Source: an uncultured Granulosicoccaceae bacterium
GTDB taxonomy: Bacteria > Pseudomonadota > Gammaproteobacteria > Granulosicoccales > Granulosicoccaceae
Assembly (NCBI GenBank): GCA_938003855.1
Contig: CALKXD010000014.1
Location: forward strand, 1-64,000
Direction: 5' to 3'
Length of the DNA: 64,000 nt
Shown here piece by piece: positions 15,376 to 22,047 of the stretch; position 1 is the first letter of the stretch, and each line of letters opens with the position of its first letter. The notes under the pieces were generated by a model that searched no databases, was not told the origin of the DNA, and was given only the letters and a program-made list of their open reading frames with translations. The translations under genes were made by a program, and so were the position numbers.

Positions 15376-16185
15376 TTAACCACGCGCTTCCACGGCCCCA
15401 CCTATAATCGACTGCAACGCGGCCAGGCCTTCGGTTAACGCCGCCGGCCCGGGCTGCAGGATTACCGGTGATTTTATTTCATGCAACTGGTCGTCTGCAA
15501 CGGCGCGTATAGACCCCCAGCCAGGTCGGGCAGCGACTTTGTCAGGGCGAAATTTTTTGCCACACCAGGACCCGATAATAATGTCCGGGTTAGCATCGAT
15601 GACCCGCTGCGGATCGGCAATAATACGGTCCTTGCCGTGCGAGCAAAGCCCAAGCTCGGCAAAGCAATCGCGACCACCGGCAATCTGTACTAACTCCGAC
15701 ACCCAGCGGATCGCAGAGATCATTGGCTCATCCCATTCTTCAAAATAGACCGCCGGGGTAAAGTCCAGTTGCTTTGCCTGCTCAGATGCCCGGTGCAGCG
15801 CGTCGCTGTATTCCGACACCAGAGCCTGCCCTTTATCGGTAGCCCCGACCAGGCTTGCCAACTGCAGGATCATGTTCAGTATTTCACCCACCGACCGGTG
15901 GTTAAGCAATAGCACATTAGCACCCAGCTTAATCAGGTCGCGGGCGATATCAGCCTGCAGATCGGAAAAGCCAATAACCAGATCTGGCTGAAGATCCATA
16001 ATTTTATCGATTTTCGCCGACGTAAAGGCAGAGACACGCGGTTTCTCCCGACGCGCCTGCGGGGGTCTTACCGTGAAGCCAGAGATCCCGACAATGCGAT
16101 CCTGCTCACCCAGTAAATAGAGGGTTTCGGTGGTTTCCTCGGTCAGGCAAACGATGCGCTCCGGGTAATGTGCTTTGAGACGCAT
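15376..16185 (-). CDS. cobalamin-binding/BtuF-like ABC substrate-binding protein (no obvious signal peptide)
   Basis: 'PERIVCLTEETTETLYLLGEQDRIVGISGF', 'IDKIMDLQPDLVIGFSDLQADIARDLIKLGANVLLLNHRSVGEI'. Confidence 0.88.
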   Translation of the reverse strand: MRLKAHYPERIVCLTEETTETLYLLGEQDRIVGISGFTVRPPQARREKPRVSAFTSAKIDKIMDLQPDLVIGFSDLQADIARDLIKLGANVLLLNHRSVGEILNMILQLASLVGATDKGQALVSEYSDALHRASEQAKQLDFTPAVYFEEWDEPMISAIRWVSELVQIAGGRDCFAELGLCSHGKDRIIADPQRVIDANPDIIIGSWCGKKFRPDKVAARPGWGSIRAVADDQLHEIKSPVILQPGPAALTEGLAALQSIIGGAVEARG

Positions 16186-16235
16186 GAGGGAATCCTGTGG
16201 CTGGTCGGCGTAAAAGTACCGGTAGTGTACTTTTC

Positions 16236-17255
16236 TCAGGCACTTTTTGTTGAGGTAACCAGACTCTGCCCGCGCCGCTCAACAATAAGTTGAGCAATAA
16301 AAACAATCAACCCTGCGACCAGCGGCAACAGATAATAGACAAAGCGAAACGCCACCAGTGAGGCCACCAGCTCAGGCTTGGGGACAGTAGTCACCAGCAT
16401 CATCATGCTGCCCTCAAACACACCGACTCCGCCCGGGACATTGGTGATCGCCGCCAGTGCCATGCAAATCAGATAGATACCGAGGAACGCCAGATAGCTC
16501 ATATCGAAGCCTGACGGCAACAGCAGATACATAATAAATGCCGCCAGAAAAACGTCAGTAGCACCCAGCGCTACCTGCCAGAGGGCAATCGCAAAGCGTG
16601 GCAATTTTATTATCAGTGTGCCGATTCTGATCGCCGCGTCCGGCACCAGGCTCCAGCCCAGATAACTCAGTGAGCCGACAATGCAGATAACGCCAAGCAC
16701 TTTGATCGACAGGCCGATCGACAAGCCGGGAATCGAGATATTCTGCAACACACTGGCAGGCTCGGTGACCAACACCACCCCCAACAGCAGGCTGCCACCG
16801 ACAAAGTAGGTCACCACACAAAACACCACCACGCCAGTGATGCGCGCCGGATCAAGCCCCGCAAGACTGTAACCGCGGTAGCGGATAGCTCCGCCCGACA
16901 AGGCGGCAAAGCCAACATTGTGACCTATCGCCGAGGCACTGAACGCGGTTGGTACCATACGCCCCCAGGTCATTGGGAAGCCTACGTGCTTTAACGCCAG
17001 ATAGTCGTACAGCGTAATGAGAATATAACTGCACGCTGTCAGCGCAATAGCAAGTGCCGCCGGAAAAACACCGATCAGGCTCAGATGCAATTTAACGTCT
17101 TCCATGCTGACGCCGTGCAAACTGCGATAAACCACGGCAAGCGCTGCCACAAAGACAATCAGTGAAAGCATGCCCGGCACCCAGGGATGCTTAAGGAGAT
17201 AGAGGATTCGACGCCCGGCCTGTGTCGCCGATGCGTCTGAGTTATTCACTGACAT
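16236..17255 (-). CDS. UPF0104/lysylphosphatidylglycerol synthase-like multi-TM protein (YbhN-like)
   Basis: Multiple TM helices, 'AFSASAIGHNVGFAALSGGAIRYRGYSLAGL', 'TNVPGGVGVFEGSMM', 'FRFVYYLLPL'. Confidence 0.88.
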   Translation of the reverse strand: MSVNNSDASATQAGRRILYLLKHPWVPGMLSLIVFVAALAVVYRSLHGVSMEDVKLHLSLIGVFPAALAIALTACSYILITLYDYLALKHVGFPMTWGRMVPTAFSASAIGHNVGFAALSGGAIRYRGYSLAGLDPARITGVVVFCVVTYFVGGSLLLGVVLVTEPASVLQNISIPGLSIGLSIKVLGVICIVGSLSYLGWSLVPDAAIRIGTLIIKLPRFAIALWQVALGATDVFLAAFIMYLLLPSGFDMSYLAFLGIYLICMALAAITNVPGGVGVFEGSMMMLVTTVPKPELVASLVAFRFVYYLLPLVAGLIVFIAQLIVERRGQSLVTSTKSA

Positions 17256-17498: not shown

Positions 17499-19241
17499 AT
17501 GAGTGACAAAATCCAGGTCTCGAAGCCTCTTGTGGTATTGCATGGCGACGAAATGGCACAGGTTGCCTTCGAGAAGATCCTGCAACAATTTGTCCATGAC
17601 AAACTGAATATCGACCTGATCGAGATTGACCTTACCGCAGAAAACCGCCTGCTCAGCAATGGACAAGCGGTGATGGACGCCATTTCCGCGCTGAAGAAGT
17701 ACGGCGTCGGCATCAAGAATGCCGGCATGACCGTCAATCGAGAGCAACTCGACGAACTCCTTGCGAAACACCCGACCATCAAAGAGAACCGACTCGACCG
17801 CCTGGCCACCAAATCTCCCAACGGTGCGATAAGAAAGGGCATTGGCGGCAATATCACGCGTGAGGACATTAAATTCCGCAATATTCAAGTCACTAAACCC
17901 GAGTGGATTGATCGCGATATCGTCGTTGATACCATGGACACCGGCGGTATCAAAGACAGTTTTAACATGCTCGCCAACGCCACCGGAGTGGCTAAACTGA
18001 TGTTTGTCGGCAGCAGCGGCGATCCGGTTGAATTGCATCGCCGCACGCTGAACCTTGGCGACCCCTGGCTACTGGCCAGCAATGATCTGGACGCCGTTAA
18101 ATCCTGGGCCCACCGTTTTTTTCAACGCGCCATCGAGGAAAAAAGAGACATCTATCTGGGCCTGAAAGATACCGTCATACCGGGCTACGACGGCGTCATG
18201 CGCGAGACCATCGAAGCGATTTACGAAACCGACTATCGCGACGTCATCGAGCAACTGGGCTTGAGCTACCACTACGAGCTGATCGACGCACAGGCAGCCC
18301 GCATTGTGGCCAACCCTCCGGAGCGAGCCCTGTGGGGGGTCCCCGATAATACCTCCGGTCGCAAACTTTTAAAGCTGGTCAACAGCCTCAAGGAGTTTGG
18401 CATGCCAACACGCAAAAGCCATGTTTCTATATCCCGCATGAGCGCTGGTGGGGGCGACCAGTACGGCAGCTTCAATTTACCGATGACAGAAGACGGACTG
18501 CTCAAAGTCATTGTCGATGGCGAAGAAAAACACGCACGCCCGGTGAAAAAAGGCGACCCGGTGCTGTTTATGTCGAATGATCGCGCTGCCATCAAAGACT
18601 GGGTCAGCCAGGTGTTCCGGGACGCCTCTCACAACGACAAAGAGGTTTATTTCGGACTCAAACGCGAATACATGGAATACGACGATGTGTTCAGTATTGT
18701 GATCGCTGAAGTGCGACGCGAGCTGGCGCGTGCCGACACCCCGCCACCGTCGTTCATGATTATGCGCCCCTCCAGCCAGCTCACCAAGATGATCACCGAC
18801 CCACCACGCAATGCGCTGTATCCGGCTCAGAACCTTGATGGCGATATTTTTTCAGATATCTCAGCGGCGCTTGGCGGCAGTCTGGCTACAGCAAGCTCTA
18901 TTATCGAGAGTAAAGACGGCACCATGCTTTATGAAGCACCACACGGCACCGCACACGATCTGTATCTGCAATACCAGCAAAGCAACGGTGAGGTGGCGCT
19001 GTTTAATTCGTCAGCGCTGATTTATGCACTGGCCAATGCCCTGGAAGAATTATCCAGGCGCGATGCAAACGACGCGCTGCTGGACTACGCACGGGCGCTG
19101 AAGAAAGCGCTGATCGACACCGTCGACCAAGGCATTATTACCGGTGATATCAAGGGTAAAACCACCGACCCGGAACAGGAAACCATTGTCGATATGACAG
19201 GCTTTCTCGATGCGGTCGCCAACAACCTGGACACACACTGA
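17499..19241 (+). CDS. icd: isocitrate dehydrogenase (NADP-type superfamily) with an internally duplicated domain
   Basis: 'KPLVVLHGDEMAQVAFEKIL', 'KSPNGAIRKGIGGNITREDI', 'NLDGDIFSDISAALGGSLATASS', 'EAPHGTAHDLY'; ATG at 17499, ORF open to 17319. Confidence 0.88.
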   Translation: MSDKIQVSKPLVVLHGDEMAQVAFEKILQQFVHDKLNIDLIEIDLTAENRLLSNGQAVMDAISALKKYGVGIKNAGMTVNREQLDELLAKHPTIKENRLDRLATKSPNGAIRKGIGGNITREDIKFRNIQVTKPEWIDRDIVVDTMDTGGIKDSFNMLANATGVAKLMFVGSSGDPVELHRRTLNLGDPWLLASNDLDAVKSWAHRFFQRAIEEKRDIYLGLKDTVIPGYDGVMRETIEAIYETDYRDVIEQLGLSYHYELIDAQAARIVANPPERALWGVPDNTSGRKLLKLVNSLKEFGMPTRKSHVSISRMSAGGGDQYGSFNLPMTEDGLLKVIVDGEEKHARPVKKGDPVLFMSNDRAAIKDWVSQVFRDASHNDKEVYFGLKREYMEYDDVFSIVIAEVRRELARADTPPPSFMIMRPSSQLTKMITDPPRNALYPAQNLDGDIFSDISAALGGSLATASSIIESKDGTMLYEAPHGTAHDLYLQYQQSNGEVALFNSSALIYALANALEELSRRDANDALLDYARALKKALIDTVDQGIITGDIKGKTTDPEQETIVDMTGFLDAVANNLDTH

Positions 19242-19388
19242 CGCGCACACCTATGACGGTCGCGGCAGCTGTTTGCGCTGTTCGCGGCCACTGTGACACA
19301 TTTCAAACTGCCTTGTTACACCCTGTTACATACTGATACGTCACTGCAAAGCCTGTACGCCCATTCTGGCCGACACTATGTTTGCCAT

Positions 19389-19907
19389 ATGGCGAAACCC
19401 AAACAGGAAAAAAAACCAGTGAAAAAATCAACCAAAATAATCACCGCCGTTGTTCTTACTCTCGGTATTGCCGGCGGCGCCGCCGCTCTCGGCAAACACC
19501 ACTACGGCGATCCATCAAAGCGCGCTCAACATATGATGAATTATGTCGGTGACGAGCTCAATCTTGACAGCACTCAGTTACAGGCACTGAGCGTACTGAA
19601 AGACCAGCTGCTGAGTGCCAGGGAAACCATGCACTCTCAAATGAAGAACGCGCACTCACAAGCGGAAACCCTGCTCTCTGCAGACACATTCGACAAAGCC
19701 AAAGCATTGGAAATGGTGACTGCAAAAACTGCCGCCGTTGACCAGGCCGCCCCGGAAGTCGTCACCGCACTGGGGAATTTCATGGACACCCTGAATGCCG
19801 AGCAGAAGAGTCAAGTGGCTGAATTTTTGTCCAGTCACCACAAGCGCGGCGGTCGTCACGGTCACCGATTCGGCAAACGCCACGGTGAGCAGTCAGCCGA
19901 CGAATAA
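19389..19907 (+). CDS. Spy/CpxP-like periplasmic protein
   Basis: N-terminal TM/signal 'KKSTKIITAVVLTLGIAGGAAALGKHH', helical region with 'LNLDSTQLQALSVLKDQLLSARE', His/Arg-rich C-terminus; ATG 19389. Confidence 0.72.
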   Translation: MAKPKQEKKPVKKSTKIITAVVLTLGIAGGAAALGKHHYGDPSKRAQHMMNYVGDELNLDSTQLQALSVLKDQLLSARETMHSQMKNAHSQAETLLSADTFDKAKALEMVTAKTAAVDQAAPEVVTALGNFMDTLNAEQKSQVAEFLSSHHKRGGRHGHRFGKRHGEQSADE

Positions 19908-19926
19908 CGATGACAGCCGGACCGGT

Positions 19927-19945
19927 CCCCCTGTCTAGCAGGGGG
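19927..19945. other. perfect hairpin CCCCCTG-tctag-CAGGGGG
   Basis: 7-bp perfect inverted repeat directly after the Spy/CpxP-like gene. Confidence 0.7.
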
Positions 19946-19955
19946 ATTGCCAGCT

Positions 19956-19984
19956 CACCAGCCCGGTTGGCTACCGGGTTGGTG
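19956..19984. other. second hairpin CACCAGCCCGG-ttggcta-CCGGGTTGGTG
   Basis: 11-bp inverted repeat with one G-T position, immediately after the previous hairpin. Confidence 0.7.
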
Positions 19985-20047
19985 GCGGCCCGCACCGACT
20001 GACCAAACTGATTTATACTCTACAAAACACTTACTCGTGAACTGCCG

Positions 20048-20722
20048 ATGCTGACCGTCTTACTGATCGACGACGATGAAAAACTCGCACCGCTGTTGTG
20101 CGAGTACTGCAATATGTACGACATAGCTATTCAATCAGAAACACTTCCGTCATCCGGATTACAGCGCCTGACGCAAGATTCCTTCGACGCCGTGATACTC
20201 GATGTCATGCTGCCGGAGATGGACGGTTTCGAAGTTTGCAAGCGAATAAGGCAGTTCAGCGAGGTACCGATAATCATGCTCACCGCTCGCGGTGAAGTGA
20301 CGGATAGAGTCGTAGGCCTTGAACTCGGTGCCGATGATTATCTGCCCAAACCTTTTGAACCTCGCGAGCTGGTCGCCCGTCTCAACACCATAGTGAAGCG
20401 CAAGCAACCGACCGCGGTAAAACCGGCCACACTGGAATTCGACAGGCTCACGATCAACACACAGCAACGCACAGTAACGGTCGCGAACAAACTTACCGAA
20501 CTCACCACAATGGAGTATCACCTGCTGTTACTACTGGCGAGCAATCCGGGGCAGGATTTCAGCCGAGATGACATCCTCAATCAACTGAAAGGCACCGAGA
20601 CAGAACTGCTGAGCCGCTCGGTCGATATTCTAATCAGCCGTCTGCGCAGCAAGCTGAAACCGCTCACCCCCATCAAGACCGTCTATGGCTCCGGGTATGC
20701 ATTTATTGGCGACGCTATATGA
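20048..20722 (+). CDS. OmpR/CpxR-like response regulator
   Basis: Receiver 'VLLIDDDEKLAPLL...DAVILDVMLPEMDGFEVCKRIR...MLTARGEVTDRVVGLELGADDYLPKPFEPRELVAR' plus winged helix. Confidence 0.96.
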   Translation: MLTVLLIDDDEKLAPLLCEYCNMYDIAIQSETLPSSGLQRLTQDSFDAVILDVMLPEMDGFEVCKRIRQFSEVPIIMLTARGEVTDRVVGLELGADDYLPKPFEPRELVARLNTIVKRKQPTAVKPATLEFDRLTINTQQRTVTVANKLTELTTMEYHLLLLLASNPGQDFSRDDILNQLKGTETELLSRSVDILISRLRSKLKPLTPIKTVYGSGYAFIGDAI

Positions 20723-22047
20723 AGCATTTGCTGAGAAGCATGCGCCAGTCTCTGACAACGCGGCTGCTGTTGCTGTTTGCGGTCGCCAGTTGCCTGCTGG
20801 TGGTGTTACTGATCGTCAGCCTGGCGCACGGTTTTTCATCGCAATGGCGGTCGACTATCCGCCCGCACATCGAACAATATCTCGACTACGTCAACACCGA
20901 TATCGGTTACCCGCCAAACCGCCAACGCGCCACCGAGATGGCCGCCGAGCTGCCGATCAATATATATATCCAGGGACCCGGCTCGAGCTTCTCAACCAGT
21001 GGTTCGCCGCTCGATCTGGACGATCTCGAATTCCGCCGACGCCGCCAGCGCAAATCCCATCGCCACCCTCAGCTTGATATCGGTGAGCATCGCGATCGCA
21101 CCGTACTGCGCAACCAGATCGGTGACTATCAGGTCTACTACGAACTCCCGCACACACGACCACGCACACAGCACGATGGCGGTATCAGAACCGCACTGCT
21201 GGCACTGCTGAGTATTCTAGGCCTATGCTACCTCGTTCTGCGGCGGATGCTCAGACCGGTACAGGACATCCAAAAAGCCGTCGGTCAGATGGGCGCCGGA
21301 CAACTCGATACCCGGGTGCCGGTGCGCGCTAACAACGACCTCGGCGCACTGGCGGGAAGCATCAACACCATGGCCAGCGATATCGAAGAAATGCTCGACG
21401 CCAAGCGACAATTACTACTCGGCGCCAGCCACGAGCTGCGCACACCGATAACGCGCGCAAAGATTGCCACACAGATGCTGCCCGAATCCGAAAATAGAAG
21501 TCGGATCGAGCAGGACTTACTCGAAATGGAATCGTTGATCTCAGGGATTCTGGAAAGCGAACGGATGAAAGGCGGTCATTCTGTTCTAACGCTCACACCC
21601 ACGCAGCTCCCCGACCTGGTGCACTCGGTCTTGCAGGAAATGCAGGCCCCTGAAGTCAGTACCGATTTTGCCACCGGTCTTGCTGCGGTAAGCATTGATG
21701 AAACACGTATCCGACTACTGCTGCGCAACCTGATCAGCAATGCACTTACCCATAGCGATGCCAATGCACCACCCCCGGTCGTGCGGTTAAGTGCAACGGC
21801 CACCCACACCACCATTAGCGTCAGTGATCAGGGCGCAGGTATTCCGGCAACAGAGATCGAAAAAATAACCGCGCCGTTCTATCGCACAGACCAATCGCGT
21901 ACACGCGCTACCGGTGGTTTTGGCCTTGGCTTGCATCTCTGCGACCTTATTGTAAAAGCACACGGCGGACACCTGCAGATAGACAGTATCGAAGGCACTG
22001 GCACCACGGTCAGCGCAATCCTGCCATTGCAACAGAGCAGCTCCTAG
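20719..22047 (+). CDS. sensor histidine kinase (CpxA/RstB-like, HAMP-HisKA-HATPase)
   Basis: 'LLGASHELRTPITRAKIATQML' H-box, 'RLLLRNLISNALTHSD' N-box, 'GGFGLGLHLCDLIVKAHGG'; 4-bp overlap with the regulator. Confidence 0.96.
   Translation: MKHLLRSMRQSLTTRLLLLFAVASCLLVVLLIVSLAHGFSSQWRSTIRPHIEQYLDYVNTDIGYPPNRQRATEMAAELPINIYIQGPGSSFSTSGSPLDLDDLEFRRRRQRKSHRHPQLDIGEHRDRTVLRNQIGDYQVYYELPHTRPRTQHDGGIRTALLALLSILGLCYLVLRRMLRPVQDIQKAVGQMGAGQLDTRVPVRANNDLGALAGSINTMASDIEEMLDAKRQLLLGASHELRTPITRAKIATQMLPESENRSRIEQDLLEMESLISGILESERMKGGHSVLTLTPTQLPDLVHSVLQEMQAPEVSTDFATGLAAVSIDETRIRLLLRNLISNALTHSDANAPPPVVRLSATATHTTISVSDQGAGIPATEIEKITAPFYRTDQSRTRATGGFGLGLHLCDLIVKAHGGHLQIDSIEGTGTTVSAILPLQQSSS

Follow-up and report, generated by a model that had tools for sequence, protein, structure and literature searches.

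The window, a stretch of 64,000 nucleotides from an uncultured Granulosicoccaceae bacterium, carries a gene for an isocitrate dehydrogenase (IDH) whose parts are listed in Table 1; the start Met of the open reading frame is also the start Met in the family alignment. Downstream on the plus strand (19293-22047) lie, as judged from their sequences, a probable Spy/CpxP-like small protein followed by a response regulator and a sensor kinase, together resembling an envelope-stress two-component cluster. Upstream on the minus strand (15376-17255) are a putative periplasmic-binding-like protein (B12/iron type) and a putative UPF0104/LPG-synthase-like integral membrane protein. No conserved neighbors of the window's IDH gene were found, the Halomonas loci of the family sharing neighbors among themselves only. 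In some of the latter (L031, L039, L048, and others) the reading frame stays open for as many as about 500 codons before the conserved Met, which is probably just a consequence of GC-rich sequence.

Table 1. Parts of the isocitrate dehydrogenase gene and of the encoded protein.
Feature	Position in window	Strand	Residues and basis
Isocitrate dehydrogenase of the ClIDH family, predicted NAD-type, 580 aa	17499..19241	+	Whole gene including stop; ATG start
Large domain, N-terminal part, residues 1-136	17499..17906	+	S106, N108, R112, R121; HHalign, FAM_N vs T2_N
Small-domain copy 1, residues 137-282	17907..18344	+	K223, D263; HHalign, alignment, model elements E140 to E276
Linker helix between copies, residues 283-303 (helix 284-300)	18345..18407	+	AlphaFold model
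Small-domain copy 2, residues 304-443	18408..18827	+	R313, Y322, K388, S425; HHalign, fragment model
Large domain, C-terminal part, residues 444-580	18828..19238	+	Metal ligands D449, D453; HHalign
D487 and L488 codons, predicted NAD+ determinants	18957..18962	+	Invariant in 71 members

Much of the protein follows the type II homodimeric enzymes. In a PDB sequence search, residues 3-271 and 440-577 matched type II NADP-IDHs (2qfv, 1e-49), with residues 272-440 appearing as extra, and HHalign aligned the N-terminal part of the large domain (99.6%, E 1.7e-24), copy 1 of the small domain (97.8%), and the C-terminal part of the large domain (98.9%, E 2.3e-17; FAM_C vs T2_C) with their type II counterparts. 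The type II NADP-IDH equivalog PRK08299 scored 235.8 bits, under the curated NCBIfam cut-off of 335, and Pfam placed Iso_dh at residues 364-556 together with a weak monomeric-IDH match at 289-543. The latter model, PF03971, reached 24.6 bits against a cut-off of 25 and was covered at positions 381-638 of 734 only; by this score and coverage the protein is not a full-length type III monomeric IDH, while it does possess the type III trait of two small-domain copies per chain. Likewise partial matches of 32 bits or less were obtained for relatives, 69 of 71 family members matching the monomeric model. Control genomes with type II IDHs (Caulobacter, Thermotoga) gave no match to this model, indicating that the weak match is not general to type II enzymes.

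The window protein is a member of a family that has already been published. ClIDH of Congregibacter litoralis KT71 is a 580-aa, NAD+-specific, isocitrate-active enzyme that forms a homohexamer of ~64-kDa chains, and 38 homologues were cited from Halomonas, Marinobacter, Luminiphilus, and others (PMC4420465). Its coenzyme determinants are Asp487 and Leu488, and the double substitution Asp487Arg/Leu488His turns its preference to NADP+ (PMC4420465). D487 and L488 occur in the window protein at identical numbering and are invariant in 71 members, in place of the Arg/His pair that determines NADP+ use (human R314/H315), which is absent. When translated, the ClIDH primers give family motifs (MSNKIKVEK; HGTAH-(two mutated codons)-YL; ARIV...GGGLYPAQNL), and a mutagenic primer translates as HGTAHRHYLRYL around the D487/L488 site. 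ClIDH and the window protein thus have in common their length, the numbering of these two residues, the primer-encoded motifs, and a marine gammaproteobacterial range. The coenzyme of the window protein is predicted from D487/L488 to be NAD+, a point that the original prediction, made from the DNA alone, had missed; NAD+-specific activity and a homohexameric state have been measured for ClIDH and would extend to the window protein by analogy. The extra 163 aa of ClIDH have been read as an insertion required for hexamerization, and deletion of the segment (Asn272 to 314 plus Gly319-Trp438) yielded an inactive monomer (PMC4420465). The window protein likewise has ~163 additional residues following the Asp of copy 1, and its gap relative to type II enzymes spans 272-440. 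Copy 2 constitutes the bulk of this published insertion. The main text of PMC4420465 mentions no duplication (term 'duplicat'), and later papers place the bacterial homohexameric NAD-IDHs under type II (PMC8287583, PMC10380307).

The IDH small/clasp domain occurs twice in tandem, at residues ~137-282 and ~304-443. Two alignable segments of ~140 aa had been proposed in the original prediction, with coordinates that were correct within about 20 bases, and both the single-sequence and the profile comparisons bear this out. With segments 137-277 (copy 1) and 278-440 (copy 2), the Smith-Waterman score was 121 against a shuffle mean of 27.9 (sd 4.9, z=19, Gumbel p ~1e-11); over 90 family rows its median was 139, compared with 27 for a control that aligned the N-domain with the small domain of type II IDHs. 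Profile-profile HHalign of the two halves, also proposed beforehand, gave 98.3% (E 2e-14, 29% identity), with an alignment z of 25 and none of 150 column shuffles scoring as high. Alignment of the linker with N-domain residues 53-81 was weak (HHalign 9.7%, 1 of 150 shuffles as high), and the idea that the linker is a remnant of those residues from a second full-length copy was dropped. The notion that the linker helix derives from the metal-binding helix was also dropped, being without sequence support.

An AlphaFold monomer model, which the original prediction had suggested building, shows the same architecture: an order of 11 elements (E-E-E-E-E-H-E-H-E-H-E) at 140-281 is repeated at 308-443. 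The model has a moderate pLDDT of 79.5 and a pTM of 0.73, and its least reliable stretches are 122-130, 316-322 (the Tyr322 loop), 460-465, and 482-501 (the NAD+ loop). When the model was searched with Foldseek, ranks 1-14 were monomeric IDHs (1itw, E 2e-29, TMq 0.62), in keeping with the proposed likeness to, yet shorter length than, these enzymes (580 aa vs ~740 aa); type II dimers ranked after them, with TMq ~0.40 vs ~0.6. The copy 2 fragment folded alone gave a weak model (pLDDT 62) whose top 50 PDB matches were all IDHs. The PDB sequence search returned no solved structure of a ClIDH-family member. Element order and PDB matches together suggest that copies 1 and 2 pair around a pseudo-two-fold.

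The active site of human IDH1 draws S94, N96, R100, R109, R132, Y139, D275, and D279 from one chain and K212 and D252 from the other. In the window protein, S106, N108, R112, and R121 correspond to S94, N96, R100, and R109, and the metal aspartates D449 and D453 lie on the sole large domain, all being invariant among 71 members. The remaining residues are split between the copies as had been anticipated: copy 1 carries K223 (K212-like) and D263 (D252-like), with an invariant Thr145 in place of R132 and a nearly invariant Lys152 in place of Y139, and copy 2 carries R313 (R132-like) and Y322 (Y139-like), spaced by two residues more than R132 and Y139. K223, D263, R313, and Y322 are each invariant in the 71 members. 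The description of the K212/D252 contexts of copy 2 as degenerate holds for the aspartate, which is replaced by an invariant Ser (S425), but not for the lysine, since the K212-equivalent K388 is kept and invariant. The monomeric IDH encoded in the same genome presents K256, D351, Y421, and D549/D553, which we take to be its active-site residues, in the same order as the window protein (K, D, Y, D-x3-D). As there is a single large domain, one composite active site per chain is expected. The duplication, the conservation of these residues, and the family membership of the window protein are established here; the catalytic role of each residue and the pseudo-dimer packing are predictions.

We consider it very probable that the ClIDH family consists of NAD+-IDHs derived from a type II ancestor whose small domain was doubled, so that the paired copies complete an active site within one chain. 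In such an ancestor, ~160 codons covering the small/clasp domain would have been duplicated in tandem. In an ordinary type II dimer, one subunit contributes its large domain and Arg/Tyr to each site and the partner contributes Lys/Asp; the chain encoded here has instead one large domain (1-136 plus 444-580) and two small domains that would pair by a pseudo-two-fold. Lys223 and Asp263 would come from copy 1, Arg313 and Tyr322 from copy 2, and the rest from the large domain: Ser106, Asn108, Arg112, Arg121, metal aspartates 449 and 453, and, for NAD+, Asp487/Leu488. Each chain would thus have one active site, the second half-site having presumably disappeared, since the chain has just one large domain and Ser425 stands where the Asp of copy 2 would be. 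Chains would then assemble further, ClIDH being a homohexamer. The term single-chain pseudo-dimer used in the original prediction is therefore apt for the chain and not for the native assembly, and a native hexamer does not follow from a pseudo-dimer chain.

This composite-site reading is compatible with two histories of the duplication. Copy 2 matched copy 2 of the monomeric IDHs in HHalign (FAM_c2 vs MONO_c2: 92.0%, E 7e-7, z=11.8; 91.9% without the linker) and monomeric copy 1 at 10.5% only, whereas type II small domains matched monomeric copy 1 (72%, z=9.4) and not monomeric copy 2 (3.4%). In the FAM_c2 vs MONO_c2 alignment the linker helix is aligned to the helix before monomeric copy 2, but alone it reached just 6.7% and is not counted as independent proof. 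The asymmetry favors a single small-domain duplication, born in a type II dimeric IDH and shared by the ClIDH family and type III enzymes, which we put forward tentatively, at somewhat less than an even chance; similar functional constraint on both second copies could also lie behind it. A duplication in the type II lineage independent of the type III one, to which we assign about an even chance, would account for the free maximum-likelihood tree of domain copies (30 rows, 140 columns), in which the two ClIDH-family copies pair (support 80) as do the two monomeric copies (89), and for the greater resemblance of the ClIDH-family copies to each other than to monomeric IDH; against it, in addition to the copy 2 matches, an AU test on the same rows and columns left a common copy-2 clade standing (p=0.21), neither arrangement being rejected. 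The IDH subfamilies, or the monomeric one, have been stated to have evolved independently (PMC8287583, PMC10380307; also PMC5979607, PMC4360740). Were the duplication shared, the ClIDH family would be a living intermediate and independent evolution of the three subfamilies would be wrong.

It is unlikely that the duplication is real while the site pairs copy 1 and copy 2 of different chains within the hexamer: native ClIDH is indeed a hexamer (PMC4420465) and oligomerization could exchange domains, but the model of a single chain aligns over about 700 columns with monomeric IDHs, whose sites are complete within one chain. The published view of the extra 163 aa as an unrelated small-domain insertion driving hexamerization is highly improbable, since, although ClIDH without it is an inactive monomer (PMC4420465), the segment can be aligned to the small domain before it, its fragment model retrieves nothing but IDHs among the top 50 matches, and the deletion takes out R313 and Y322 with almost the whole of copy 2, a loss sufficient for inactivity without a hexamer role. 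Reread in this way, the segment is a second copy of half the active-site scaffold, and this accounts for the loss of activity and corrects the published view of a characterized enzyme.

Family members were collected at 80 loci, with 74-88% identity to the window protein; their hosts include Halomonas, Marinobacter, Halioglobus, Parahaliea, Motiliproteus, and Granulosicoccaceae. It was present in 7 of 387 sampled gammaproteobacterial genomes, the window's own included, an eighth match being an ordinary type II enzyme, and was not found outside Gammaproteobacteria in a sample of 399 genomes of the phylum; across both samples nothing scored between ~1100 and 132 bits, where more distant members would lie. 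Plasmids gave matches below 60% identity only and, among the matches listed, all were ordinary type II IDHs. The ClIDH-family enzyme is an additional IDH in its hosts, with 18 of 20 genomes that carry the family gene also carrying a monomeric IDH. In one of them (G004, C354:11549-13728) the monomeric IDH gene is in two overlapping pieces, possibly through a frameshift, and another genome (G493, C78:24221-28984) carries two such genes adjacent to each other on the same strand. The window's genome encodes a separate, true monomeric IDH of ~742 aa (L112, G000:C257:6619-8820), probably of NADP type to judge from its GSAPKH motif. The two remaining PF00180 proteins of this genome have HGSAPDIAG motifs and resemble dehydrogenases of the isopropylmalate/tartrate type, so that its IDH pair would be the monomeric enzyme and the NAD-type enzyme, as C. 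litoralis pairs an NADP-IDH with ClIDH.

The family and its enzymology are thus known, while the duplication is not described in the published account; the mechanism put forward in the original prediction is correct in its main lines. No link between ClIDH and a duplication was found in the open-access texts searched, and the anatomical reading, which is well supported, is new with respect to these texts. The published account of ClIDH differs from the present one in interpretation, a hexamerization insertion in the paper being a second small domain here. Type II homodimeric NADP-IDHs (human IDH1/2, yeast 2qfv, PRK08299) share all isocitrate-site residues with the window protein but lack copy 2 and the linker helix that separates the copies, and have Arg/His where the window protein has its NAD+ determinants. 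The best structural match is with the type III monomeric IDHs (A. vinelandii 1itw, 2b0t, and others; ~740 aa), which likewise have one large domain and two small-domain copies, with K/D on copy 1 and Tyr on copy 2; the window protein is ~160 residues shorter, nearest to type II in sequence outside copy 2, and has an NAD+-type loop, and ClIDH, unlike these enzymes, is a homohexamer. Monomeric IDHs show <10% identity to other types (PMC5979607), and their parent type can no longer be read in their sequence. The ClIDH family, which has the look of a bridge from the usual dimeric IDHs to the large monomeric ones, offers a second and more compact case of monomerization by domain duplication, in which the type II parent is still readable, and makes the descent of monomeric IDHs from type II dimers testable.
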